A stretch of 64,000 bases of DNA from Psychromonas algarum (GTDB lineage Bacteria; Pseudomonadota; Gammaproteobacteria; Enterobacterales; Psychromonadaceae): positions 186,001 through 250,000 of the forward strand of contig NZ_SNUW01000006.1 in the NCBI RefSeq assembly GCF_004376845.1. Direction: 5' to 3'. The first letter of the stretch is position 1, and every line of letters begins with the position of its first letter. The notes beneath the pieces are model-generated. The model was not told the origin of the DNA. It worked only from the letters and a program-made list of their open reading frames with translations, and searched no databases. Position numbers and translations under genes: made by a program. Below, piece after piece: positions 11,800 through 61,746 of this stretch.

Positions 11800-14076
11800 A
11801 TGAACAAAAACCTGACTGTAACCAAACGAAATGGTAAAAGAGAAAGCATTGACCTTGATAAAATTCATCGCGTTATCACGTGGGCGGCAGAAGGTCTAAC
11901 TAATGTTTCTGTTTCACAGGTTGAGTTGAACTCTCACATTCAGTTTTATGATGGAATTCGTACTGATGATATCCATGAAACCATTATTAAAGCAGCGGCC
12001 GATCTTATTTCAGAAGAGTCTCCTGATTATCAATATTTAGCGGCACACCTAGCTGTATTCCATTTACGTAAACGTGCTTACCAACGTTTTACACCACCAA
12101 GTGTGTTTGAGCATGTCAGTAAAATGGTTTCAAAAGGTAAATACGATGAACATTTATTAGAAGATTATAGCAAGCAAGAATTTGAAGAAATGGAAACGTT
12201 TATCGATCACAGTCGTGATTTAAACTTTTCATACGCTGCAGTTAAACAGCTAGAGGGTAAATATCTTATCCAAAACCGTGTTAGCGGTGAAATATATGAA
12301 AGCGCACAATTTTTGTATCTATTAGTTTCTGCTTGTTTATTTGCTAATTATGATAAAGATGTGCGTCTTGATTACGTAAAACGTTTTTATGATGCAACCT
12401 CTCAATTTAAAATTTCCTTACCAACACCAATTATGTCTGGTGTACGTACACCAACCCGTCAGTTTAGCTCATGTGTCTTAATTGAAGCGGATGATAGTTT
12501 AGATTCGATCAATGCAACCGCGAGTTCAATTGTTAAGTATGTATCACAACGTGCAGGAATTGGTATTAACGCTGGCCGTATTCGCGCAATGGGCAGTAAT
12601 ATTCGAGGTGGTGAAGCATTCCATACTGGTTGTATTCCATTTTACAAATACTTCCAAACAGCGGTTAAATCTTGTTCTCAAGGCGGCGTTCGTGGTGGTG
12701 CTGCGACAGTATTCTACCCAATTTGGCATTTAGAAGTTGAATCATTATTAGTATTAAAAAATAACCGAGGTATTGAATCTAACCGTGTTCGTCACCTTGA
12801 TTATGGTGTACAACTAGGTCGTTTGTTCTACCAACGTTTAATTGATAAAAAAGACATTACATTATTTAGCCCTTCTGATACTCCTGGCTTATATGATGCA
12901 TTTTTTGAAGATCAAGATGAATTTGAGCGTTTATACCATCAATACGAAGCTGATGAATCTATTCGTCAAACGTCTATTCCAGCAGTACGTTTGTTCTCAT
13001 TATTAATGCAAGAACGAGCAAGTACTGGTCGTATTTATATCCAAAATGTTGACCATTGTAATACTCATAGTCCATTTGATAGTAAAGTCGCACCAGTACG
13101 TCAAAGTAACTTATGTTTAGAAATTGCGTTACCAACTAAACCGCTACAACATATTATGGATGAAGAAGGTGAAATCGCACTTTGTACGCTATCAGCACTT
13201 AACTTAGGTGCGATTGAATCATTAGATGAAATTGAACCTTTAGCTGAATTAGCAGTGCGTGCATTAGATAACCTATTGGATTACCAAGACTATCCTATTA
13301 TTGCAGCAGAAAAGAGCAGCATGAATCGCCGTACGTTAGGTATAGGTGTTATTAACTACGCATATTACTTAGCGAAAAATGGTGTTAAATATTCTGATGG
13401 TAGTGCGAACAACTTAACGCATAAAACTTTTGAAGCAATTCAATTTTATCTGTTAAAAGCATCAAATAAACTAGCAAAAGAACGTGGTGCCTGCCCTAAA
13501 TTTAACGAAACACGTTATGCTCAAGGTATTTTACCTTTAGACAATTACAAAAAATCATTGGATACTATTTGTAATGAAGAGTACCACTTAGATTGGGAAA
13601 CATTACGTCAAGATATTGTTAGAGATGGCTTACGTAACTCTACATTATCAGCATTAATGCCTTCTGAAACATCAAGTCAGATATCTAATGCTACGAACGG
13701 TATTGAGCCTCCACGTGGTTTCATCAGTATCAAAGCCAGCAAAGATGGTATTTTAAAACAAGTTGTTCCAGAGTTTGATAAATACAAAGAAAACTACGAA
13801 TTATTGTGGAGCATTCCTAATAATCAAGGTTACTTAGAGCTAGTTGGTATCATGCAAAAGTTTGTTGACCAAGCAATTTCAGCAAATACAAACTACGATC
13901 CAAAACGTTTTGAAGATGGCAAAGTGCCAATGACTGTTTTACTTAAAGATCTATTAATGGCTTACAAAATGGGATTAAAAACACTTTATTATCATAATAC
14001 ACGTGATGGTGCAGACGATGAAAAAGTAATGGAAAAAGAAGATGATGATTGTGCAGGCGGAGCTTGTAAAATCTAA
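11800..14076 (+). CDS. nrdA: Class Ia ribonucleoside-diphosphate reductase, alpha subunit
   Basis: NrdA reduces ribonucleoside diphosphates to deoxyribonucleotides with the radical supplied by NrdB. The start at 11800 (MNKNLTVTKRNGKRESIDLD) matches E. coli NrdA and gives 758 residues (E. coli 761). The open frame extends 16 codons upstream to a TTG without family similarity. An N-terminal ATP-cone (about 5-95) provides dATP control. Active-site segments SSCVLIE, NLCLEIALP, the NATNGIEPPRG region and the terminal CAGGACKI redox cysteines are present. It has tandem NrdR and DnaA boxes upstream but, unusually, a terminator directly downstream and no nrdB next to it. Confidence 0.97.
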   Translation: MNKNLTVTKRNGKRESIDLDKIHRVITWAAEGLTNVSVSQVELNSHIQFYDGIRTDDIHETIIKAAADLISEESPDYQYLAAHLAVFHLRKRAYQRFTPPSVFEHVSKMVSKGKYDEHLLEDYSKQEFEEMETFIDHSRDLNFSYAAVKQLEGKYLIQNRVSGEIYESAQFLYLLVSACLFANYDKDVRLDYVKRFYDATSQFKISLPTPIMSGVRTPTRQFSSCVLIEADDSLDSINATASSIVKYVSQRAGIGINAGRIRAMGSNIRGGEAFHTGCIPFYKYFQTAVKSCSQGGVRGGAATVFYPIWHLEVESLLVLKNNRGIESNRVRHLDYGVQLGRLFYQRLIDKKDITLFSPSDTPGLYDAFFEDQDEFERLYHQYEADESIRQTSIPAVRLFSLLMQERASTGRIYIQNVDHCNTHSPFDSKVAPVRQSNLCLEIALPTKPLQHIMDEEGEIALCTLSALNLGAIESLDEIEPLAELAVRALDNLLDYQDYPIIAAEKSSMNRRTLGIGVINYAYYLAKNGVKYSDGSANNLTHKTFEAIQFYLLKASNKLAKERGACPKFNETRYAQGILPLDNYKKSLDTICNEEYHLDWETLRQDIVRDGLRNSTLSALMPSETSSQISNATNGIEPPRGFISIKASKDGILKQVVPEFDKYKENYELLWSIPNNQGYLELVGIMQKFVDQAISANTNYDPKRFEDGKVPMTVLLKDLLMAYKMGLKTLYYHNTRDGADDEKVMEKEDDDCAGGACKI

Positions 14077-14107
14077 TCTTTGATACCTGCTATTACCCTC
14101 ATAAATT

Positions 14108-14134
14108 AAGGATGTGTTTTACACATCCTTTTTT
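14108..14134 (+). terminator. Strong terminator directly after nrdA
   Basis: The perfect 10-bp stem AAGGATGTGT / ACACATCCTT with a TTT loop is followed by further Ts, 31 bases past the nrdA stop. It should separate nrdA transcription from the next genes. Confidence 0.9.
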
Positions 14135-14372
14135 ATTACCCCTAATATTTATTATTAAAAAATTAATTCAAATTAATATCATCATTTAGGAAATTTAAAT
14201 ACACCTTCTCGGGTCTTTATTTTTAAGCTATCTATTAAGCACTTATATATATGGAATATATTTGTTTAGCAGCAATAAAAAATAATAGATAAAAACTCGA
14301 TTTAAGATGTTTTAACAGGTTAAACAAAACCTTATAAATCATCTAACTGTATTTCCCTAAAGGCGATCAATT

Positions 14373-16526
14373 ATGCTTAAAAAAATCACCCTACTGTTAC
14401 TTGCTGTATTATTAATCGGCTTGTTCTTTCATTTTAACTTGAATCAATTACTCACTTTAGAAGGCCTAAAGGGATCAATGGAGCAATTTAATGAATGGAA
14501 AGAGCAATCACCCGTTACAATTATTGGCGCTTTTTTTCTGTTATATATTCTAGTTACAGCTTTAGCATTGCCTGGAGCTGCTATCTTAACTTTAGCCGCA
14601 GGTGCTTTATTTGGATTATTAAACGGATTCGTGATTGTTTCTTTTGCTTCTAGTATTGGAGCAACGCTGTCTTTCTTAGTATCTCGTTATCTTTTACGTG
14701 ATTCATTAAAACAACGCTTTCCTGAACGTTTAAAAGCCATTGATGAAGGCGTCAAAAAAGAAGGCGCTTTCTATCTATTTACATTACGTTTAGTGCCAGT
14801 GTTTCCTTTCTTTTTAATCAACCTATTAATGGGCGTGACGGCACTTAAATCATGGACTTTCTATTGGGTAAGCCAAGTGGGTATGCTAGCGGGCACCTTT
14901 GTTTACGTTAATGCTGGTACGCAACTAGCACAAATCGATAGTCTTTCGAACATTTTATCGTTTAACTTAATTCTTTCGTTTGTTTTATTAGGCGTTTTTC
15001 CATTGATTGCAAAAATAATTATTAACATTATTAAAAAGCGTCGTGTTTACAAAAACTGGACTAAACCCGCTAAGTTCGACCGTAATATGGTTGTTATTGG
15101 TGCGGGTGCAGGTGGATTAGTAACAAGCTATATTGCCGCAGCAGTGAAAGCAAAAGTCACTTTAATTGAAGCCGGTGAAATGGGTGGTGACTGTCTGAAC
15201 TATGGTTGTGTCCCGAGTAAAGCCATCATCAAAAGTGCAAAAATTGCCGAGCAAATTCGCAATGCACACCATTACGGTTTGGAAGACTCTACTCCACAAT
15301 TTTCATTCAAAAAAGTAATGGCACGTGTTCACCAAGTAGTTGCAGATGTTGCACCTCACGATAGCGTTGAGCGTTACACAAAGTTAGGTGTTGAAGTGGA
15401 AAAAGGCTATGCCAAAATTCTTGACCCGTGGACAGTACAAATTAGTTATGCTGACGGAACCACTAAAAAACTCACCACTCGTAGTATTGTGATTGCAACA
15501 GGTGCTCGTCCATTTGTACCACCACTACCTGGTATAGAAGAAACGGGTTATGTCACCAGTGATACTTTATGGAATGAATTTGCAAAATTAGAAGAAGCAC
15601 CTAAGAAACTAGTGGTACTAGGCGGTGGGCCAATCGGTTCAGAGTTAGCACAAAGTTTTGCACGTTTGGGTTCTGAAGTGACACAAATAGAAATGGCTGA
15701 ACGCATCATGATCAAAGAAGATCTTGAAGTGTCTGAGTTTGCAACAGAATCACTAAAAGAAAGTGGTGTTAATATCTTAACCTCACACCAAGCATTACGT
15801 TGTGAAGCAAAAGACGGTAAGAAATTCATTATCGTAAAACATAATGATCAAGAGATTGAAATTGAATATGACCAACTATTATGTGCTGTGGGTCGTAGCG
15901 CTCGTTTAACGGGTTACGGCTTAGAGGAATTAGGAATTGAAACTAACCGCACTATTTTAACCAATGAATATTTAGAAACGCTGTACCCTAATATTTTTGC
16001 AGCAGGTGATATTGTAGGTCCTTACCAATTTACTCACGTTGCAGCTCATCAAGGTTGGTATGCAGCGGTGAATGGTTTATTTGGTAATTTGAAAAAATTC
16101 AAAGTGGATTACCGTGTTATTCCATGGACAACGTTTATTGATCCAGAGGTAGCTCGAGTAGGTATTAATGAAGCGGAAGCAAAAGAAAAAGGTATTGATT
16201 ATGAAGTGACACGCTTTGATTTTGAAGAGTTAGACCGTGCAATTACAGATAGTGCAACCAAAGGTTTCATTAAAGTGATCACACCAAAAGGTAAAGACAA
16301 AATTCTAGGCGTTACTGTGGTTTCTGAGCACGCAGGTGATTTAATTGCAGAGTTTGTATTAGCGATGAAACATGGTTTAGGGCTGAACAAAATATTGGGA
16401 ACAATTCACAGTTACCCAACATGGGCTGAAGGTAACAAATATGCTGCAGGCGAATGGAAACGTAATCACGCGCCAGAAACTGTTTTAAATTGGTTAGAGA
16501 AATATCATACATGGAGACGCGGTTAA
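14373..16526 (+). CDS. TVP38/TMEM64 (VTT) membrane domain fused to FAD-dependent pyridine nucleotide-disulfide oxidoreductase
   Basis: The 717-residue protein joins two known families. Residues 1-225 are a multi-spanning TVP38/DedA-like VTT domain, with the family's glycine-rich region near residue 80 and FxxRLVPVFPF near residue 140. Residues 238-700 are a class I flavin disulfide reductase with the FAD-binding GAGAGG (243-248), the redox pair CLNYGC (C274, C279), an NAD(P) site at GGGPIGSELA and the dimerisation domain. Where lipoamide dehydrogenase has HPT near the end, this protein has HSYPTWAE, so the usual catalytic histidine is a tyrosine (Y681) while E686 is kept. The function is unknown; a membrane-attached thiol/disulfide or metal-reducing role is inference. 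The next gene starts inside its stop codon. Confidence 0.88.
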   Translation: MLKKITLLLLAVLLIGLFFHFNLNQLLTLEGLKGSMEQFNEWKEQSPVTIIGAFFLLYILVTALALPGAAILTLAAGALFGLLNGFVIVSFASSIGATLSFLVSRYLLRDSLKQRFPERLKAIDEGVKKEGAFYLFTLRLVPVFPFFLINLLMGVTALKSWTFYWVSQVGMLAGTFVYVNAGTQLAQIDSLSNILSFNLILSFVLLGVFPLIAKIIINIIKKRRVYKNWTKPAKFDRNMVVIGAGAGGLVTSYIAAAVKAKVTLIEAGEMGGDCLNYGCVPSKAIIKSAKIAEQIRNAHHYGLEDSTPQFSFKKVMARVHQVVADVAPHDSVERYTKLGVEVEKGYAKILDPWTVQISYADGTTKKLTTRSIVIATGARPFVPPLPGIEETGYVTSDTLWNEFAKLEEAPKKLVVLGGGPIGSELAQSFARLGSEVTQIEMAERIMIKEDLEVSEFATESLKESGVNILTSHQALRCEAKDGKKFIIVKHNDQEIEIEYDQLLCAVGRSARLTGYGLEELGIETNRTILTNEYLETLYPNIFAAGDIVGPYQFTHVAAHQGWYAAVNGLFGNLKKFKVDYRVIPWTTFIDPEVARVGINEAEAKEKGIDYEVTRFDFEELDRAITDSATKGFIKVITPKGKDKILGVTVVSEHAGDLIAEFVLAMKHGLGLNKILGTIHSYPTWAEGNKYAAGEWKRNHAPETVLNWLEKYHTWRRG

Positions 16527-17434
16527 TGTTTTTTATGAAAAATCTAAGTTCAAAAAAAATCAACAATGCGAGCTCTTTTATGCGTTTAGCATTGGGTGCA
16601 GTTTTGTTAATAAACCCATTAATCAGTCATGCTAATGGCATTTCAAACAATGACTCTTCTGTGCATAACATAAGCTCGCCAACAACAGAAGTGGTCAAAC
16701 CCAATCTACATGCAGATTGGCAAACACTACTTAGCCAATATATTAAACCGATCAATAATGGCCATAGCACAGCCGTTGATTATACTGGTATAAAAAAACA
16801 GCAAGCACTATTACAGAGTTACCTTAAACGTTTAAGTAAGGTCTCACAAAAGGAGTTTGATGCTTGGTCAAACTCAAAACAATTAGCTTTTTTAATCAAT
16901 GCTTATAATGCCTGGACCATTGAGTTTATTCTTACTGAATACCCAAATATTGAATCAATTAAAGATTTAGGTAGTTTCTTTAATTCTCCATGGGATAAAG
17001 CATTTATTCCTTTATTAGGTAAAAAAGTCAGCTTAAATGATATCGAACACGGGTTAATTCGTGGTAGTGATCGTTATAATGATCCACGTATTCATTTTGC
17101 AGTTAACTGTGCAAGCATTGGCTGCCCAGCTTTAAGTGAAGAAGCTTATACGGAGAATAAACTAGAGACGCAATTAACAGTACAAACAGAGCGTTTTTTA
17201 ACAGATTCAAGTCGTAACTATATTAAAGGCAATAAGTTGTATTTATCCTCTATCTTTAAATGGTATGGCGATGACTTTGAAAAAGGTTTTAGAAATACAA
17301 ACTCTATACAAACCTTTATATTGTTATATGCAGATGCTTTAAAGTTAAGTGATGCTCAAAAGTTAGCATTAAGTAAACAGGACTTTACTATTAAATTTTT
17401 AGATTACAATTGGAAGTTGAATGCAACAAACTAA
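16526..17434 (+). CDS. DUF547 protein, exported
   Basis: The ATG at 16526 overlaps the previous stop (TAATG) and has a GGAG site eight bases upstream, giving 302 residues. A longer open frame starts at 16490 but lies inside the upstream gene. An N-terminal hydrophobic segment (about 17-36, ending SHANG) looks like a signal peptide. The DUF547 domain (about 70-260) has its characteristic AFLINAYNAWTI, the SPW motif near HGLIRG, and NCASIGCPAL with two cysteines four apart. The function of DUF547 is not known; the cysteines and the reductase upstream make a redox role conceivable. Confidence 0.85.
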   Translation: MFFMKNLSSKKINNASSFMRLALGAVLLINPLISHANGISNNDSSVHNISSPTTEVVKPNLHADWQTLLSQYIKPINNGHSTAVDYTGIKKQQALLQSYLKRLSKVSQKEFDAWSNSKQLAFLINAYNAWTIEFILTEYPNIESIKDLGSFFNSPWDKAFIPLLGKKVSLNDIEHGLIRGSDRYNDPRIHFAVNCASIGCPALSEEAYTENKLETQLTVQTERFLTDSSRNYIKGNKLYLSSIFKWYGDDFEKGFRNTNSIQTFILLYADALKLSDAQKLALSKQDFTIKFLDYNWKLNATN

Positions 17435-18728
17435 CTATTATAGACAGCTGATAAGGATAATTAGCTGTCATTTTAGCGCTTTATTTTTACTACAGGGCTT
17501 ATTACTGGGTATAACGTTACTGGGAGTAATGTTTAGTAGTCATGCTTCAGCGCAGTCTAATCAATCTATGCCAGAAAATTGGCAACAGATTGAACAACAA
17601 GGACGTAACCAGCCTGTTTATTTTCATGCGTGGGGAGGCGATGCTCAAATTAATAATTACATTCAATGGGTTGCCCGCCGGGTTAAAGAAAAATACCAAA
17701 TAGATTTACAACATGTAAAGCTCACCAATACCAGTGAAGCAGTAAGCCGAGTATTAGCTGAAAAATCAGCGAAGAACCATAAAAATGGGCAAGTTGATTT
17801 AATTTGGATCAACGGAGCTAATTTTGCCTCCATGGCAGAGCACCAATTATTAGTCAAAGATTGGGTTAGAACCATACCTAATTTTTCCTTAACAAATCCA
17901 AGTAACAACCCTGCTATGACACGTGATTTTGGCGTACCGACTGGTGGAATGGAGGCGCCTTGGGGTCAAGCAGCCCTCACCTTTTATTATGACCAGTTAA
18001 AAGTTAAGCAGCCTCCGCAATCTCTGCCACAGTTATTAAATTGGAGTAAACAAAACCCTGGTCGCTTTACTTACCCTAAACCACCAGCATTTTTGGGTAT
18101 AAGCTTTTTAAAATATACATTAATTATTTTAAATGAATCACAACCTGAACACATAAAAGAACAACTTTATCTTCCAGCAACAGCTGAAAGCCAAACACTA
18201 TTATTACCACCATTGTGGGCATACTTAGCGCAATTACATCCTTATTTATGGCGTCAAGGTAAACACTTTGAATCCAATGGCTTAGCAATGAGACGTTTAA
18301 TGGCCGATGGCGAATTACAAGTATCTTTTACCTTTTCAGCAGCTGAAATCCCCTCTGCGATTAGTCGCTATGACCTACCAGACACAACGCGTGCCTATAG
18401 GATGCAAGATGGTAGTTTAAGCAATGTTCACTTTATTGCGATCCCCTATAACTCTGCTCATCGTGATAGTGCGAAATTAGTCGTTAACTTCTTGTTAAGC
18501 CCAGAAGCACAAGCTAAAAAACAGCAAGCATCGGTTTGGGGAGATAGTAGCGTGTTAGACTTATCACAATTAAATACTTTTGAAAAATCGCTATTTAATA
18601 GCAATGAGAAAAAGCATCCCAGTACAATCATTGAAAATATAGACAACACTCGTTTATTAAGTGAATTGCACCCTAGCTGGGTAAAAGTCATCTCGGAACA
18701 ATGGATTGCCCGTTATGGAGTGCAATAA
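17421..18728 (+). CDS. ynjB: YnjB-like ABC transporter substrate-binding protein
   Basis: This is the periplasmic binding component of an importer related to E. coli YnjBCD, whose substrate is unknown. The 435-residue product has a signal peptide (about 28-45, ...SHASAQ). Family blocks include VYFHAWGGDAQINNYIQWV near the start, VDLIWINGANF and PWGQAALTFYYDQ, typical of YnjB and distantly like iron/thiamine binding proteins. Its ATG lies 14 bases inside the DUF547 gene, and the permease start overlaps its stop, so translation is coupled. Confidence 0.88.
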   Translation: MQQTNYYRQLIRIISCHFSALFLLQGLLLGITLLGVMFSSHASAQSNQSMPENWQQIEQQGRNQPVYFHAWGGDAQINNYIQWVARRVKEKYQIDLQHVKLTNTSEAVSRVLAEKSAKNHKNGQVDLIWINGANFASMAEHQLLVKDWVRTIPNFSLTNPSNNPAMTRDFGVPTGGMEAPWGQAALTFYYDQLKVKQPPQSLPQLLNWSKQNPGRFTYPKPPAFLGISFLKYTLIILNESQPEHIKEQLYLPATAESQTLLLPPLWAYLAQLHPYLWRQGKHFESNGLAMRRLMADGELQVSFTFSAAEIPSAISRYDLPDTTRAYRMQDGSLSNVHFIAIPYNSAHRDSAKLVVNFLLSPEAQAKKQQASVWGDSSVLDLSQLNTFEKSLFNSNEKKHPSTIIENIDNTRLLSELHPSWVKVISEQWIARYGVQ

Positions 18729-20446
18729 TGATTGTCCCTAATACTGTATTTACACGCACCATTGCAAGCACACCAACTTTACTCATTTTATTATTAGTGG
18801 TACCTGTCCTTGGTGGTTTATTAGGTTTGTTATTACCCGCTTTTGGCTGGTTACCTGCGCTTAACTCAACTGAATTTAATTTACTTGGATTTGAACATCT
18901 TTTGGCAACACCTGGTATCGAACGTATGGTGTTACTGAGCTTTACAACTAGTTTAATCAGTACCTTATTCGCGTTTTTGATCACTATCTTAATATTAGCG
19001 AGTTATTTTAATAGTCCATGGCTACATAGGATCCAGCGTCTCTTAGGGCCTGTATTAGTCATTCCTCATGCAGCAGCAGCAATTGCAATTGGATTTCTGA
19101 TCACCCCTTCAGGATTTATATCTCGAGTTTTTTCACCTTGGTTAAGTGGATGGGATAATCCACCTGACTGGTTACTTCCTAACGACCCTTATGGGTTAAG
19201 TATTATTTTAGGTTTAACGCTAAAAGAATTACCTTTTCTGTTATTAATTGCATTAGGTGTATTAGCGCAACCAGAAATCGGAAGAACCTTAAAAGCACAA
19301 CATAAAGTCGCATTAAGTTTGCAGTATTGCCCTATGACAGCTTTTTTTAAAGTCATTTTACCGACACTTTACGGATATATGCGTTTACCTATTTTGGCGG
19401 TATTAGCTTATTCCAGTGCTAGCGTCGAGATCCCATTAATTTTAGGACCTAATACTCCACCTACTTTAGCGGTTGCGATCATGCAGTGGTTTCATGATCC
19501 TGATTTAAGTTTACGTATTCAAGCATCGTCAGGGGCTATCTTACAAATTGCTATCACATTATTAGTCTTAGCAACATGGACTCTATTAGAGCGCCTTACC
19601 AAAAAATTGCTGCTCGGAAAACTCACTAATGGTCAACGCGAAGTCGGAGGTATGTTCATTAAGCAGTTTACTAATGCACTTACATTTATGATGCTGAGTA
19701 TGATTGGATTCGCGTTAATCGCTATGCTGTTGTGGTCATTTTCTGGTTTTTGGTCTTTCCCTGATTTGCTGCCACAACAACTTGTTAGCCTGCATTGGCA
19801 ATCGGCACTTACACAAATGCAAGCGCCGCTATGGAATACATTAAAAATAGCTCTTACTACGGCATTACTAGCCATTGTATTAACCTTATTTGTACTAGAA
19901 GCGGAGCAACAAACCACTAAAAATATTGCTGTAATCAGTGGCTTTATTATCTACTTACCCTTACTTGTGCCTAGCATCGCCTTTTTATTTGGCTTGGTAT
20001 GGGTATTGGAACAGATAAATAGCCAACACTCTTTTATTAATGTGGTATTAGCTCACCTGCTTTTTGTCTTACCCTATGTATTTTTATCCTTGGCCACCAG
20101 CTACCGCCGTTTAGATCCTCGTTTTAGTGCTGTAGCTGCAAGTTTAGGTGCAAGCCCAGCTAAGATTTTCTGGCAATTAAAATTACCTTTATTATTCGCA
20201 CCAATTTTAATTGCTTGTGCCTTAGGGTTAGCTATTAGTTTTGGTCAGTATTTACCGACATTATTAGCAGGTGCAGGGCGACTTAATACCATCACCACTG
20301 AAGCGGTTACCTTAGCAAATGGAGCAAGTCGTAGAACCAGTGCTGTATACGCTTTAGTGCAAATGTTATTACCCGCTTTATTCTTTTTATTAGCTTGGTT
20401 ACTACCAAAGCTTTTCTTCCGCGCATCAAGTGAGGACATTAAATGA
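18728..20446 (+). CDS. ynjC: YnjC-like ABC transporter permease (two fused permease halves)
   Basis: The start at 18728 overlaps the ynjB stop (TAATG) after a GGAG site; the longer frame from 18701 lies in ynjB. The 572-residue product has about twelve membrane segments in two halves, each with an EAA-type cytoplasmic loop (KVALSLQYCPMTAFFKVILP near 200, AASLGASPAKIFWQLKLP near 475). It is therefore a fused homodimer-like permease. E. coli YnjC is similar in layout (511). It forms the channel of the importer with YnjD. Confidence 0.87.
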   Translation: MIVPNTVFTRTIASTPTLLILLLVVPVLGGLLGLLLPAFGWLPALNSTEFNLLGFEHLLATPGIERMVLLSFTTSLISTLFAFLITILILASYFNSPWLHRIQRLLGPVLVIPHAAAAIAIGFLITPSGFISRVFSPWLSGWDNPPDWLLPNDPYGLSIILGLTLKELPFLLLIALGVLAQPEIGRTLKAQHKVALSLQYCPMTAFFKVILPTLYGYMRLPILAVLAYSSASVEIPLILGPNTPPTLAVAIMQWFHDPDLSLRIQASSGAILQIAITLLVLATWTLLERLTKKLLLGKLTNGQREVGGMFIKQFTNALTFMMLSMIGFALIAMLLWSFSGFWSFPDLLPQQLVSLHWQSALTQMQAPLWNTLKIALTTALLAIVLTLFVLEAEQQTTKNIAVISGFIIYLPLLVPSIAFLFGLVWVLEQINSQHSFINVVLAHLLFVLPYVFLSLATSYRRLDPRFSAVAASLGASPAKIFWQLKLPLLFAPILIACALGLAISFGQYLPTLLAGAGRLNTITTEAVTLANGASRRTSAVYALVQMLLPALFFLLAWLLPKLFFRASSEDIK

Positions 20447-21093
20447 AAACTCAATCCCCTCCTTCATTAGACATTCGCCATTTGCTGTTAAAGCAAAATG
20501 AGAAAACGTTACTGTCGCTTAATGAAGTCATTAAAGGTGGAGAAATACTCACTATAATGGGACCTTCAGGCAGTGGTAAATCCACACTACTTAACTGGTT
20601 GGTTGGTATGTTACCCAGTAATTTTCAGGCAACAGGTGAATTGTATTTAAATGAGAGCAACATTACTCATAGTGCAAGCCATGTTCGACACATTGGATTG
20701 CTTTATCAAGATCCTTTGTTATTTCCTCACTTAACCGTTGAAGGTAATATTGCCTTTGCTATGCCTGCAGGTAATAAACAACAGCGTCTTGATAAAATTA
20801 ATGAAGCATTAGATCAGGTAGGTCTTACAGGTATGGGCAAACGCTTTCCACAAAGTTTATCCGGAGGACAACAAGCACGTATTGCCTTATTACGAGTTTT
20901 ATTAAGTAAACCCAAAGCCATTTTATTAGATGAGCCTTTTAGTAAATTAGACAGTCAATTACGTCAAGAAACACGTCAGTTAGTATTTGAGCAAATACAG
21001 CGTCATTGTTTACCTGCTGTGATGGTCACACATGATCAGAGTGATGCAACTGCCGCGCAGGGAAAAGTGATTACATTAAATTCCACCTCGTAA
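20443..21093 (+). CDS. ynjD: YnjD-like ABC transporter ATP-binding protein
   Basis: This is the ATPase of the importer. The 216 residues contain Walker A GPSGSGKST (40-48), the signature LSGGQQAR, Walker B AILLDEPF and the switch VTHDQSDA. The start overlaps the permease stop by four bases (ATGA). Its length and order (B-C-D) follow E. coli ynjBCD. Confidence 0.92.
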   Translation: MKTQSPPSLDIRHLLLKQNEKTLLSLNEVIKGGEILTIMGPSGSGKSTLLNWLVGMLPSNFQATGELYLNESNITHSASHVRHIGLLYQDPLLFPHLTVEGNIAFAMPAGNKQQRLDKINEALDQVGLTGMGKRFPQSLSGGQQARIALLRVLLSKPKAILLDEPFSKLDSQLRQETRQLVFEQIQRHCLPAVMVTHDQSDATAAQGKVITLNSTS

Positions 21094-21123
21094 TCCAATC
21101 ATTTACACATAATAGGAAAGCAC

Positions 21124-21738
21124 ATGCTAGATAAATTTATCACTCCTTATATCAAACCTATATTAATGCCTATTGTGGTGCAATTAGATAAACGCAAGGT
21201 ACATGCAGACCAAGTAACTTTAGTGGGTTTTGGCATCGGTTTATTAGCCTTACCACTGCTAGCAGCACAACTTTGGACGGCAGCATTAGTCATGATAGTG
21301 CTTAATCGTGTACTCGATGGTTTAGATGGTGCACTTGCTCGTTATCAACAACAATCGAATAGTGCGGGTGGATATTTAGATATCTGTGTCGACTTCTTAT
21401 TTTATGCCGCTATTCCATTAGGTTTTGCTTTAGCCGAACCTATTGAAAATGCATTGCCTGCCACCGTCTTATTAGCTGTTTTTATTGGCACGGGTTCCAG
21501 TTTTTTAGCATTTGCGATCCCAGCAGAAAAGCTAAATTTAGCACGTCCACAATTTGCTAATAAAAGCTTTTATTTTTTAAATGGATTAACTGAAGGCACT
21601 GAGACTATCGCCTTTTTTGTCGCTTTTTGCCTATGGCCAACTTACTTCCCAGAGCTTGCTTATAGTTTTGCATTGTTAGGTGCGATCACTATTTTCACTC
21701 GTATTCATGGTGGCTACCAAACCTTAAAAAACAAATAA
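21124..21738 (+). CDS. ynjF: CDP-alcohol phosphatidyltransferase family protein (YnjF-like)
   Basis: Enzymes of this family transfer a phospho-alcohol from a CDP-linked donor to an acceptor alcohol in membranes. The 204-residue membrane protein carries the full signature DG(x)2AR(x)8G(x)3D(x)3D at residues 68-90 (D68, G69, A72, R73, G82, D86, D90), so catalysis should be intact. E. coli also has ynjF beside ynjBCDE. Here ynjE (rhodanese) is absent. The acceptor is unknown. It lies 30 bases after ynjD with an AGGAAAG ribosome site. Confidence 0.85.
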   Translation: MLDKFITPYIKPILMPIVVQLDKRKVHADQVTLVGFGIGLLALPLLAAQLWTAALVMIVLNRVLDGLDGALARYQQQSNSAGGYLDICVDFLFYAAIPLGFALAEPIENALPATVLLAVFIGTGSSFLAFAIPAEKLNLARPQFANKSFYFLNGLTEGTETIAFFVAFCLWPTYFPELAYSFALLGAITIFTRIHGGYQTLKNK

Positions 21739-21803
21739 AAGTAATGTAGAAAATTATATTGAAAACGGCATAATACGCGACATAGAAAATAGCAGGATAA
21801 TTT

Positions 21804-22634
21804 ATGATGATCGACGATACATTTATTCGACTAGGTGTTTTTTTTCTTGTTCTAGTTGTAATGATAGGATTAGAAATTCGCTCACCCGCAAGGCAACTTC
21901 CTAAATCGACAAAACTACCCATTGTTAGTAAAAGTAAGGCCCAAATAATCCGATTATTAGGTAATTATGGGATCACCATTATATCTGCTGTGGTAGCAAG
22001 ATTATTACTACCGGTAGGATTAGTGGGGGTTGCAGTTTTCAGCACAGATCATGACTGGGGGATATTTAACCTAATTCCAATACCTAGTTGGTTAACTATT
22101 ATTTTAAGCCTTTTATTATTAGATTTATTAATATATTGGCAACACCGTTTATTCCATGAAATACCCTTATTATGGAAGTTACATCGAGTCCATCATGCAG
22201 ATCCTCATGTTGATAGCAGCACTGGGTTACGCTTTCATCCATTAGAAATAGTAGCGAGTTTACTAATTAAGGCACTTGCTATTTTTATGCTGGGGATCCC
22301 TGCTGTAGCCGTTATTCTTTTTGAAGTTTTACTCAATGGATTTGCCATTTTTAATCATGCCAACATTCGTTTACCGCATCGTATTGAAAGTGTTGCTCGA
22401 CGTTTTATCATGACTCAAATATTACATCGGATCCATCATAGTCAACGAGTCGATGAGAATAACTGTAATTATGGGTTTAGTGTCATCTGGTGGGATCACT
22501 TATTCTTAAGCTACACCGATAAATCCACCAAACTAGACTCAAAAATTGAACTTGGGCTTGCTGAATACCCTGATGCAAAGCAAAACACTCATTTACTGGG
22601 ATTATTAATGATGCCCTTTAAAAGAAATGAATAG
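21804..22634 (+). CDS. Fatty acid hydroxylase / sterol desaturase family protein
   Basis: These are membrane di-iron enzymes that hydroxylate or desaturate lipids. The 276-residue product has four membrane segments. The histidine clusters that hold the irons are HRLFH, HRVHH and HPLE in the first half and HRIHH near residue 210, so the active site looks complete. It starts 65 bases after the ynjF gene in the same direction, which suggests it belongs to the same unit, though it could be independently transcribed. The substrate is not predictable. Confidence 0.82.
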   Translation: MMIDDTFIRLGVFFLVLVVMIGLEIRSPARQLPKSTKLPIVSKSKAQIIRLLGNYGITIISAVVARLLLPVGLVGVAVFSTDHDWGIFNLIPIPSWLTIILSLLLLDLLIYWQHRLFHEIPLLWKLHRVHHADPHVDSSTGLRFHPLEIVASLLIKALAIFMLGIPAVAVILFEVLLNGFAIFNHANIRLPHRIESVARRFIMTQILHRIHHSQRVDENNCNYGFSVIWWDHLFLSYTDKSTKLDSKIELGLAEYPDAKQNTHLLGLLMMPFKRNE

Positions 22635-22715
22635 CCCAAAAGCTGATTTTAATAGTGAAGATAAAACCTGTCTTTGTTAAGATGTCGAAAATTAAAATGC
22701 CTAACGGAGAGTCAC

Positions 22716-23861
22716 ATGGCTTACACTACTTTCTCTACTCTTTCTAACGATGCACTTAAAGAGCCAATGTTTTTTGGTAACCCTGTTAACGTGGCTCGTT
22801 ATGATCAACAAAAATTTGAAGTATTTGAAAAATTAATTGAAAAACAGCTTTCATTTTTTTGGCGTCCTGAAGAGATTGATGTAAGTCGAGATCGTATCGA
22901 TTTTTTAAATCTTCCTGATCATGAGCAACATATCTTCATCTCAAATTTAAAATATCAAACACTGCTTGATTCAATTCAAGGTCGTAGCCCAAATGTTGCA
23001 TTATTACCTATCGTATCACTACCTGAACTAGAAACTTGGATTGAAACATGGGCATTTTCTGAAACAATCCACAGCCGTAGTTATACGCATATTTTACGTA
23101 ACCTATTCACTGATCCAAATGAAGTGTTTGAAGATATTGTTAATAATAATGAAATTCAAAAGCGTGCAATTGATATTTCATATTATTATGACGAACTGAT
23201 CCATGCAGTGCAGTTCATGCAATTACATGGTTTAGAGCAAACTAAAGTTGAGTATATTAATCTTCAAGGTAAAGCAGAAAAAATTACTTTACGTGATATT
23301 AAGAAAAAATTATATCTATGTATCTGCTCTACTAACGCATTAGAAGCAATTCGTTTTTATGTCTCTTTTGCATGTTCATTTGCTTTTGCTGAACGCGATT
23401 TATTAGAAGGTAATGCAAAAATAATTAAATTAATCGCCCGCGATGAAGCCTTACATTTAAATTCAACACAACAAATTTTAAACCTATGGGCTGATGGCAA
23501 AGATGATCCTGAAATGGCTGAAATTGCATTAGAATGTTTTGCAGAAGGACGTGAAATTTTCTTAAAAGCAGCACAACAAGAAAAAGAATGGGCGCAATAT
23601 TTATTTAAAGATGGCTCAATGATTGGTTTAAATGAACAAATTTTATGCCAATACGTAGAGTATATTTCTAACCAACGTATGCAGGCCATTGGTTATGAAG
23701 CTCCTTTTGAAGTTAAAAATAACCCAATCCCATGGATTAATCATTGGTTAGTCAGTGACAACGTACAAGTTGCACCACAAGAAGCTGAAATAAGCTCTTA
23801 CTTAGTGGGACAAATTAATAGTTCCGTTGATAGTGAAGACTTAAGTACATTTGAGTTATAA
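22716..23861 (+). CDS. nrdB: Class Ia ribonucleoside-diphosphate reductase, beta subunit
   Basis: NrdB carries the di-iron centre and tyrosyl radical. The start at 22716 ([20 protein letters not shown]) matches E. coli NrdB and has GGAGAG upstream, giving 381 residues (E. coli 376). The frame upstream to 22674 is not conserved. Iron ligands lie in [12 protein letters not shown], the YYDELIHA helix and ARDEALHL. The C-terminal [21 protein letters not shown] region is the NrdA-binding tail. No NrdR box is seen in the 81 bases upstream; nrdA is 8.6 kb away. Confidence 0.96.
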
Positions 23862-23876
23862 ACATCATTATTAATA

Positions 23877-24125
23877 ATGCCAATACTTACCTATAACGGT
23901 CAACAATATCCGCTTCATACTGAAAAAACACTGCTTGAGAATTTAGAGTCTCAAGCAGTTTCGGTTGAATTCCACTGTCGAGAAGGCCATTGTGGTGCTT
24001 GTCGTTCAAAATTAATTTCAGGAAAAGTTACTTACAGCCAGTTTCCAATGGCTTATTTGAGAGGCGACGAAGTCTTACTTTGCTGTAGTAAAAGTGAAGA
24101 AAATATCACTATTGATGCCCCCTAA
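23877..24125 (+). CDS. yfaE: YfaE-type [2Fe-2S] ferredoxin
   Basis: YfaE maintains the di-iron tyrosyl radical cofactor of NrdB. The 82-residue plant-type ferredoxin has the cluster ligands in CREGHCGAC (C-x4-C-x2-C) and a last cysteine in VLLCC. It lies 15 bases after nrdB, as in E. coli, so the cofactor-repair partner has stayed with nrdB rather than nrdA. No clear ribosome site is seen, which suggests translational coupling. Confidence 0.92.
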   Translation: MPILTYNGQQYPLHTEKTLLENLESQAVSVEFHCREGHCGACRSKLISGKVTYSQFPMAYLRGDEVLLCCSKSEENITIDAP

Positions 24126-44337: not shown

Positions 44338-44423
44338 TGGTGCCCGGAGACGGACTTGAACCGTCACGACCATAAGTCGAGGGATTTTAAATCCCTTGTG
44401 TCTACCGATTTCACCACCCGGGC
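44338..44423 (-). tRNA. tRNA-Leu (anticodon UAA)
   Basis: The 86-base minus-strand gene folds as a class II tRNA with acceptor GCCCGGG/CTCCGGGC, a long variable arm and anticodon loop TTTAAAA giving TAA. The T arm is GGTTCAAGTCC-like. CCA is encoded. It is nearly identical to E. coli tRNA-Leu(UAA). A terminator follows. Confidence 0.95.
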
Positions 44424-61391: not shown

Positions 61392-61746
61392 TGGTGGAGA
61401 TGGGGGGAGTCGAACCCCCGTCCGAAAAGCCTACATCCTCGGTACTACATGCTTAGTCTATCTTTAGATTAACTCTCAACACTCCGACAGACAGGATTGC
61501 AAAGAGCGAGTCCGATACTATTTCGCGGTTCACCCTCGAACAAGGTTCCCTCGCTATCCAAATGTAAATGACCTTCCGAATCCCTGCCCATAGGAGAAAC
61601 GTGGGTGGAAGGCTAGCGAGCCTAAGCTGCTAGAGCGTAGTTATCGTCGTTTGCAACTATAACTTTGGTGGCTTTTTACGAGGCCAGCCACCACCTCGGC
61701 ATGCACCTTGGGTTTCAAGAATCTCGTCGAGTCCTAAATCATCCCC
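61392..61746 (-). ncRNA. ssrA: Transfer-messenger RNA
   Basis: tmRNA rescues stalled ribosomes together with SmpB. The 355-base gene begins GGGGATGATTTAGG and ends in a tRNA-like T arm (GGTTCGACTCC) and encoded CCA; the two ends pair as an acceptor stem. The conserved GAAACCCAAGGTGCATGCCG and GCATGTAGTACCGAGGATGT blocks match E. coli tmRNA. The tag frame after the resume codon GCA reads ANDDNYALAA and stops at TAG; E. coli has ANDENYALAA and TAA. It lies just downstream of smpB on the same strand. Confidence 0.97.

Follow-up and report, generated by a model that had tools for sequence, protein, structure and literature searches.

Introduction

To our knowledge, no substrate or role has been assigned to the ydj-ynj operon of Escherichia coli. 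In the relevant part of one study, ydjXYZ-ynjABCD is given as an FNR-activated operon and ynjE is listed apart from it, with an FNR site for each (PMC3688515), while a passage of another assigns ynjA (1.6-fold) and ynjB (1.4-fold) to the regulon of the envelope-stress regulator BaeR (PMC2731931). Here, we analyzed a stretch of 64,000 nucleotides from the gammaproteobacterium Psychromonas algarum (contig NZ_SNUW01000006.1, positions 186,001 to 250,000; hereafter, the window), in which seven same-strand genes, read from the sequence as open reading frames (ORFs), follow each other head to tail at positions 14373-22634 (+). This unit unites in one locus homologues of YnjB, YnjC, YnjD, and YnjF with a VTT protein of the YdjX/YdjZ type. 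With slightly better than even confidence, we read the block as a horizontally transferred variant of the ydj-ynj operon that would be controlled by an extracytoplasmic function (ECF) sigma factor promoter and serve against oxidant or thiol stress in the envelope.

Other described systems share parts of this arrangement. The ECF factors RpoE2 of Haemophilus influenzae and SigE of Neisseria meningitidis control a methionine sulfoxide reductase, DoxX, and DUF2282-type set (relevant section of PMC7907618). The Caulobacter SigF regulon comprises YedY/MsrP, DUF2282, and DoxX, and msrA homologues did not respond (relevant section of PMC3511200), while a Brucella ECF pair controls MsrPQ homologues under hypochlorous acid from the promoter GTAAC-N17-CGAA (relevant section of PMC8315932). 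Finally, fusion to PF07992/PF02852 is the commonest fusion of the DedA subfamily COG0398, in a passage that gives no operon context or regulation (PMC10127716).

Results

Organization of the unit

The gene layout (Table 1) agrees with the initial annotation, which had described the same seven genes and the overlaps among the first five; these overlaps fit translational coupling, though they do not prove it. E. coli YdjX and YdjZ both match the fusion protein by tblastn, and searches with the E. coli proteins gave identities of 39% for YnjB, 30% for YnjC, 47% for YnjD, and 56% for YnjF. The unit differs from the E. coli operon in that a disulfide reductase is joined to its VTT domain, genes for DUF547 and a hydroxylase are added, and ynjF lies on the same strand as the other genes instead of the opposite one. 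YdjY and YnjA had no match in the window (tblastn, E 1e-3), nor did E. coli-type YnjE, whose absence had been reported at the outset and taken as a possible mark of a distinct pathway. That interpretation is not supported, because two relatives with the fusion, ynjBCD, and ynjF (L228 and L232) have YnjE nearby and because ynjE is listed apart in the relevant part of the E. coli study (PMC3688515).

Table 1. Position and assignment of the unit, its predicted promoter, and its flanking features in the window
Feature	Position	Strand	Basis and remarks
nrdA, ribonucleotide reductase large subunit (upstream flank)	11800..14076	+	ORF, Pfam
Terminator-like hairpin and T-run between nrdA and the unit	14108..14130	+	Sequence
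Predicted ECF-sigma-like promoter, GAAATT-N16-GGTCTT	14190..14217	+	Motif match; 155 nt 5′ of fusion ATG
VTT/DedA-type and MerA-like disulfide reductase fusion	14373..16526	+	Pfam VTT, Pyr_redox_2, and Pyr_redox_dim
DUF547 protein, exported-looking	16526..17434	+	Pfam DUF547; TAATG overlap with fusion
YnjB solute-binding protein	17421..18728	+	Pfam SBP_bac_8, NCBIfam; 14-base overlap with DUF547
YnjC permease, 572 aa	18728..20446	+	Pfam BPD_transp_1, tblastn; TAATG overlap with YnjB
YnjD ATPase	20443..21093	+	Pfam ABC_tran, tblastn; ATGA overlap with YnjC
YnjF-type CDP-alcohol phosphotransferase	21124..21738	+	Pfam CDP-OH_P_transf, tblastn; 30-base gap after YnjD
Fatty-acid-hydroxylase family protein, presumably di-iron	21804..22634	+	Pfam FA_hydroxylase; 65-base gap after YnjF-type gene
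nrdB, presumably (downstream flank)	22716..23861	+	Named from its sequence and place
yfaE-type ferredoxin, presumably (downstream flank)	23877..24125	+	Named from its place after nrdB

The unit is conserved across several marine genera

Genome contigs were scanned by alignment with YnjB, and the best 80 of at least 587 loci, a sample that leans toward close relatives, were compared. The complete set of seven genes was found with its order kept in 11 of these loci (L030-L034, L037, L040, L047, L048, L050, and L066), belonging to Psychromonas, Shewanella, Colwellia, Pseudoalteromonas, Pseudocolwellia, Alteromonas, and Salinimonas, as well as in another genome from the same taxonomic order (L233). 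Such recurrence of seven genes in the same arrangement excludes chance. The unit is real, conserved, and common to several genera, and represents the ydj-ynj system in a marine version. A TonB receptor gene directly precedes the fusion in 9 of the 11 complete loci and in L233, at the place held by nrdA in Psychromonas; the four receptors examined have 776-809 residues and look like siderophore receptors, that of L031 reaching 95 bits (cut-off, 223.5).

The fusion was present over at least 70% of its length in 32 of the 80 YnjB loci, and other lineages carried partial versions of the unit. In Psychrobacter, 8 of 10 loci have the fusion, ynjBCD, and YnjF, with DUF547 in none and the hydroxylase in four. 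Eleven halomonad loci contain an APH-type kinase, ynjB, ynjC (ynjD in 10), and relatives of TIGR04283 and TIGR04282, then the fusion; these families were assigned on L052 alone, and the conserved cluster (L052:8870-18184 and the other halomonad loci) also holds an oxidoreductase resembling the SelD N terminus. The remaining halomonad and alphaproteobacterial loci have ynjBC(D) without a whole fusion.

An even sample of 229 genomes of the class gave a different view. The fusion matched at 1e-100 in 99 genomes, split and reductase-only relatives included, while YnjB exceeded its cut-off in 8, DUF547 was found in 51, and ArsS exceeded its cut-off in 113. We took 68 places in 67 genomes to be fusion-like; 30 genomes have both proteins, and in 8 of them DUF547 is no more than 3.5 kb away from the fusion. 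Partners were then counted within 6 kb with 12 queries in 79 reductase neighborhoods, of which 72 also include the VTT part: DUF547 was found in 9, ArsS in 10 (an 11th, L151, was dropped at 26% identity), TIGR04282 in 7, TIGR04283 in 6, YnjC and YnjF in 3 each, the hydroxylase in 2, and YnjB in 1, and 56 neighborhoods had none of the 12. One of these regions, in genome G210 (L142:5459-14578), gathers the hydroxylase (37%), DUF547, the fusion, ArsS, TIGR04283, and a TIGR04282 relative (28%) within about 9 kb. Moreover, the fusion was present in just one of six further YnjB regions from the genus and order (L229-L232, L238, and L239). The fusion and DUF547 thus form a recurring pair, whereas their link to ynjBCD is lineage-specific, since the fusion usually lies away from the importer.

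A predicted ECF-type promoter motif precedes the operon

The motif GAAAKT-N16-GGTCTW was first seen by eye before nine TonB-headed operons and the unit in the window. These rows are therefore not independent of its definition; those outside its discovery are L030, L066, L220-L226, L233, and L234. The window contains a single match with at most one mismatch, exact, at 14190-14217, where chance predicts a mean of 2.73 at that looseness. Within 400 nt of 40 operon starts, the motif was exact in 14 cases and had one mismatch in five, and dinucleotide shuffles equaled these 19 matches in 0-2 of 200 trials. The matching starts come from Psychromonas, Colwellia, Pseudoalteromonas, Pseudocolwellia, Salinimonas, and G280; two further starts, L031 and L048, had two mismatches (equaled by 4 and 3 of 200 shuffles). 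In G237, where the fusion and ynjB are separated, the motif precedes both. The overlaps, the conserved order, and this one likely start signal bear out the initial view that the genes form one unit, and neither the rare co-occurrence nor the unrelated regulation that it named as contrary evidence was found within several marine genera.

Consensus boxes for Fur, FNR, Zur, NrdR, NikR, ArcA, and Crp showed no consistent signal in a set of 19 operon upstream regions, with single rows at p 0.03-0.07, FNR most often. Before the unit in the window, the best FNR-box match was 8/10, which 47% of shuffles equaled. The E. coli operon is FNR-activated; no FNR box stood out before the operon in the window, for which an ECF-like promoter is predicted instead. 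An Rfam search of the window and four loci provided no known RNA or riboswitch lead to a substrate; in the window, it returned a tmRNA (61392-61746) and a tRNA (44341-44423), both on the - strand.

The motif is shared with genes for repair of oxidized proteins

In the own genome of the window, GAAAKTN16GGTCTD (last base A, G, or T) has five matches, of which four lie 33-155 nt 5′ of the starts of MsrP, a DoxX-like gene, a Spondin_N lipoprotein gene, and the present operon, and the fifth falls within an ABC-transporter ORF. The MsrP gene, with the motif 33 nt 5′, scores 471 bits (cut-off, 207) and is followed by MsrQ (213; cut-off, 130). The DoxX-like protein is 70% identical to one encoded divergently from the operon in Shewanella algicola, and 13 loci, from Shewanella, Pseudoalteromonas, Pseudocolwellia, Alteromonas, Salinimonas, and Psychrobacter, have a gene of this family alongside the operon; the protein of L031 scores 23.6 against the Pfam DoxX cut-off of 23.6. 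Being both a neighbor of the operon in other genera and a carrier of its motif in the own genome, the DoxX-like gene would be an independent sign of a link.

Extending the search to 24 genomes of the genus, that of the window included, we read 94 matches, 43 of which precede genes of 13 named families, nine of them more than once. These are the Cys-repeat peptide (7), the VTT fusion (6), a 327-aa family (6), HAD hydrolase and YdjM (5 each), DoxX-like (4; G000, G234, G242, and G246), MsrP (2; own genome and G249), exported MsrA (2; G242 and G246), Glu_synthase-like (2), and one each of spondin, DsbD-like, NfuA-like, and DUF2282 (G247; L310, 77.6 bits, cut-off 22.4). A third MsrA case in G234 (L295) was judged by eye from the sequence. 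Families were sorted by short peptide patterns; for MsrA, HAD, YdjM, Glu_synthase, DUF2282, and NfuA-like, a single example was checked against Pfam, and the DsbD-like gene is presumably of that family, judging by its residues.

Two families behind the motif gave no Pfam match in the example searched. The small, exported-looking peptide with NPCAAK-type terminal repeats (L304:281-574, L268, L292, L312, L322, L325, and L338) has no Pfam family in the L304 example and is possibly a metal or oxidant sink. The 327-aa family (MVKE..LRLGEK; L329:259-1239, L265, L271, L289, L297, and L313, with a seventh case, L262, by eye) had no Pfam match for L329.

The set obtained resembles the RpoE2, SigE, and SigF regulons in placing methionine sulfoxide reductases, DoxX-like, and DUF2282 genes behind one promoter type, with MsrP in the set both here and in Caulobacter; we take COG3767 of the H. 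influenzae work to be DUF2282. It differs from them in that the motif also precedes the VTT-reductase/ynj operon, spondin, and Cys-repeat proteins and, in related genera, a TonB receptor. Since the Caulobacter/Brucella-type promoter differs from the present motif, the likeness is limited to the type of regulon.

As for the sigma factor, the own genome has three ECF genes with likely anti-sigma partners, namely, ECF-DUF3379 and two pairs that we take from their features to be RpoE-RseA-like and ECF-ChrR-like. The ECF gene paired with DUF3379 (L281:1447-2007 (-), L345-L363) contains GAAATA-N16-GGTCTT-like letters at its coding 5′ end, which could reflect a coding constraint or an internal promoter.

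The unit lies at a recurrent insertion site and was probably transferred

This YnjB, at an identity of at least 69%, is encoded in nine of the 24 genus genomes, in every case from a gene placed between nrdA and nrdB. In the other 15, these genes are about 45-155 bases apart in 11; the gap is about 520 bases in G244 and 4.9 kb in G233, no nrdB match was found in G240, and G237 has the fusion and DUF547 alone at this site, with the hydroxylase, ynjBCD, and ynjF elsewhere. The gap of G233 holds genes of 336 and 959 aa, presumably binding-protein-like and GGDEF/EAL-like, respectively. The nrdA-nrdB junction (14077-14372 and 22635-22715 in the window) is thus a recurrent insertion place in Psychromonas, taken by this unit, by its two-gene version, or by that pair. 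A hairpin follows nrdA in the three unit carriers and the two-gene version compared, with equivalents of the terminator-like one of the window in L030, L066, and L234, and none was found in the short stretch read of L237, where nrdA and nrdB adjoin. No terminator-like site was found between the unit and nrdB. A TGTTARKAT-like string just 5′ of nrdB (22660-22715), with similar strings in four loci compared by eye, may be the promoter of nrdB itself; given this string, we do not conclude that nrdB is driven by the unit alone.

More distant YnjB proteins (38-44%) occur in 9 of the 15 other genus genomes, G237 included, and no genus genome has both types. Their nine main regions contain fusion-ynjBCD-ynjF in six cases, with the hydroxylase in two of these; in L221, the VTT gene lacks the reductase, and the sequence of L227 ends too early. 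In a maximum-likelihood tree of 31 fusions (rooted at the midpoint, with some long branches and with 8 of its 28 inner branches open), the four nrd-located fusions tested group together (100/100), with Shewanella algicola as their neighbor (96/95), and fall within a marine set of 13 rows (100/99). Six other Psychromonas fusions form a separate clade of their own (100/100), and two Psychrobacter rows are nested in a Pseudoalteromonas/Pseudocolwellia group (100/98). Horizontal transfer of the block between genera would be the simplest reading of this topology.

Properties of the encoded proteins

The VTT domain of the fusion scores 87.8 bits for PF09335 (cut-off, 33.9), and the protein is of the same type as the COG0398 fusions, a likeness of fusion type rather than a COG assignment. 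The nearest relative of the reductase half in the PDB is MerA (5x1y, 269.5 bits). As in MerA, it has a redox Cys pair (in GGDCLNYGC), which is conserved in all 103 fusions chosen by their PSK context. The Tyr of the C-terminal motif (HSYPTWAE) is likewise shared with MerA, and by pattern 96 of the 103 have it at the corresponding place; alignment shows that lipoamide dehydrogenase has a His there, a residue with an assigned role. MerA typically ends with a vicinal Cys pair, whereas the membrane-fused protein has no CC within the last 30 residues in any of 105 full-length fusions. This absence and a score of 385.8 bits, under the NCBIfam MerA cut-off of 454.45, set the protein apart from mercuric reductase.

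In the DUF547 protein, C195, C200, H175, H190, and D250 are invariant in 12 of 12 aligned sequences, a pattern compatible with a catalytic or redox Cys. It had no phmmer match in the PDB at 0.1, and its model (predicted local distance difference test [pLDDT], 77.8) had no Foldseek match at E 0.001, with a best VIA Z of 3.8; an unmatched fold does not demonstrate a new one.

YnjB reaches 496 bits for NCBIfam NF008633 (cut-off, 203), and its AlphaFold2 model (pLDDT, 89.8) is a good periplasmic binding protein model. No phmmer match was found in the PDB at 0.01, and a profile gave weak matches (best E, 0.0022) to ferric, polyamine, 2-aminoethylphosphonate (AEP), agropine, and sugar binders. Since many sugar, phosphate, polyamine, and iron binders tie on this fold, no ligand was called. 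YnjC is weakly related to ThiP/PhnU2-type permeases, under their cut-offs. The hydroxylase is a distant relative of OlsE, and at 77.6 bits it fails the curated cut-off of 475 for this ornithine-lipid hydroxylase.

Discussion

Taken together, the gene set, its conservation, the common promoter motif, and the genes behind that motif, all read from sequence, are what the preferred reading builds on, and from them we infer a sigma factor, an inducer, a direction of electron flow, a substrate, and a lipid step. An envelope oxidant (hypohalous acid, copper, or another thiol oxidant) would free an ECF sigma factor, and the ECF-type promoter would then turn on the operon with MsrP-MsrQ, exported MsrA, the DoxX-like and DUF2282 proteins, and the Cys-repeat peptides, whose role would be to repair or buffer oxidized envelope proteins. 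At the inner membrane, the anchored flavoprotein, fed by NAD(P)H, would reduce an oxidized thiol, metal, or electrophile, while the exported DUF547 protein may work on a related substrate in the periplasm. YnjBCD, which the TonB receptor would supply in related genera, would import a small solute that is required under the stress or harmed by it, and YnjF and the hydroxylase may change membrane lipids. Our confidence in any single biochemical step is far lower than in the regulatory reading. We likewise regard as tentative, and rather doubtful, the general proposal that the ydj-ynj system is an envelope-redox defense passed between genera as a cassette, in which the MerA-like reductase, DUF547, TonB-to-ABC import, and the two lipid enzymes would act as a single response, under ECF control, against hypohalous or metal oxidants and tied to the repair of methionine sulfoxide.

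Several observations weigh against ECF control and a common oxidant response. The motif was absent before all eight Psychrobacter and all nine halomonad operons (six of the latter with approximate starts), before L228 and L232, and from all but one of 72 VTT neighborhoods of the class at one mismatch; ECF control is therefore lineage-specific. In the own genome, the reversed control gave four matches against the five of GAAAKTN16GGTCTD, and the looser GAAANTN16GGTCTW gave six in both directions. Across the 24 genus genomes, 118 matches stand against 91 for the reversed control, with enrichment confined to the nine carriers (71 versus 33; the other 15, 47 versus 58). Among the 94 matches read, 26 fall inside other long ORFs, and for another 25 there is no named gene. 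The own DoxX-like protein scores 22.4, under the Pfam cut-off of 23.6, and an FNR-box-like string (9/10) precedes three of nine TonB-headed operons (shuffle p 0.03-0.07). Lastly, motif-like letters at the ECF-DUF3379 gene (one or two mismatches, 16 of 19 genomes) lie inside its own coding 5′ end and thus prove nothing about the cognate sigma factor.

The block might instead consist of separate modules (the fusion with DUF547, ynjBCDF, and the hydroxylase) that were transferred together under one promoter and share no biochemical pathway, an explanation that we consider unlikely. G237 fits it, with the fusion and DUF547 at nrd, ynjBCDF elsewhere, and the hydroxylase 5′ of the motif, as do the transfer seen in the fusion tree and seven other genomes of the class in which DUF547 and the fusion are at most 3.5 kb apart, none with YnjB over its cut-off. 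The tight overlaps speak for a closer association, and the modules are joined or co-promoted in different lineages.

The initial annotation proposed that YnjBCD imports an alcohol or headgroup precursor, which YnjF attaches to a lipid that the hydroxylase modifies, with a linked reduction supplied by the fusion. YnjF and the hydroxylase do accompany the importer in all 11 complete loci and four Psychrobacter ones, and YnjF, with or without the hydroxylase, follows the divergent fusion-ynjBCD operon in six other Psychromonas genomes. The top Foldseek ranks for YnjB are an AEP binder and sugar-phosphate binders, but VIA-align ties many classes at Z 25-28, including sugar, dinucleotide, and glycerophosphodiester binders. 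Moreover, 11 halomonad loci with ynjBC and the fusion have no YnjF or hydroxylase match, and the promoter shared with MsrPQ, MsrA, and DoxX is left unexplained. Import of a headgroup precursor is possible, with little positive support, and we judge the scheme as a whole quite improbable; the unit looks like part of an oxidant defense rather than a proven lipid-making pathway.

Finally, it is very unlikely that the reductase and DUF547 belong to an arsenosugar- or selenium-like organometalloid pathway of which the unit is the import-and-lipid branch: an ArsS-type radical S-adenosylmethionine gene, TIGR04282, and TIGR04283 recur near the reductase at the counts given above, the last two stand next to the fusion in halomonad ynjBCD loci, and G210 joins all of them with the hydroxylase and DUF547, but most reductase neighborhoods (56 of 79) have none of the 12 partners, the three families were unmatched in the window (E 1e-3) and in the 11 complete loci (E 1e-6), and the own genome has no ArsS over its cut-off (best, 46.6 versus 300 bits).

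Returning to the ECF-controlled envelope-stress operon, our searches, which covered open-licence papers, found none that ties this operon to an envelope-oxidation regulon, that joins DUF3379 with a sigma factor, that joins DUF547 with TVP38, or that deals with a selenodomain-associated transferase. What is new here is the conserved ECF-sigma-like motif before the operon, common to MsrP-MsrQ and DoxX-like genes, together with the nrdA/nrdB site, which the initial annotation did not mention. The tie of the motif to MsrPQ, MsrA, and a DoxX-like gene would single out envelope oxidation as a specific condition in which to seek the function of the ydj-ynj system. The unnamed families behind the motif would be candidates for such tests, and the same condition may prove useful for finding the function of DUF547 proteins and of DedA-reductase fusions.

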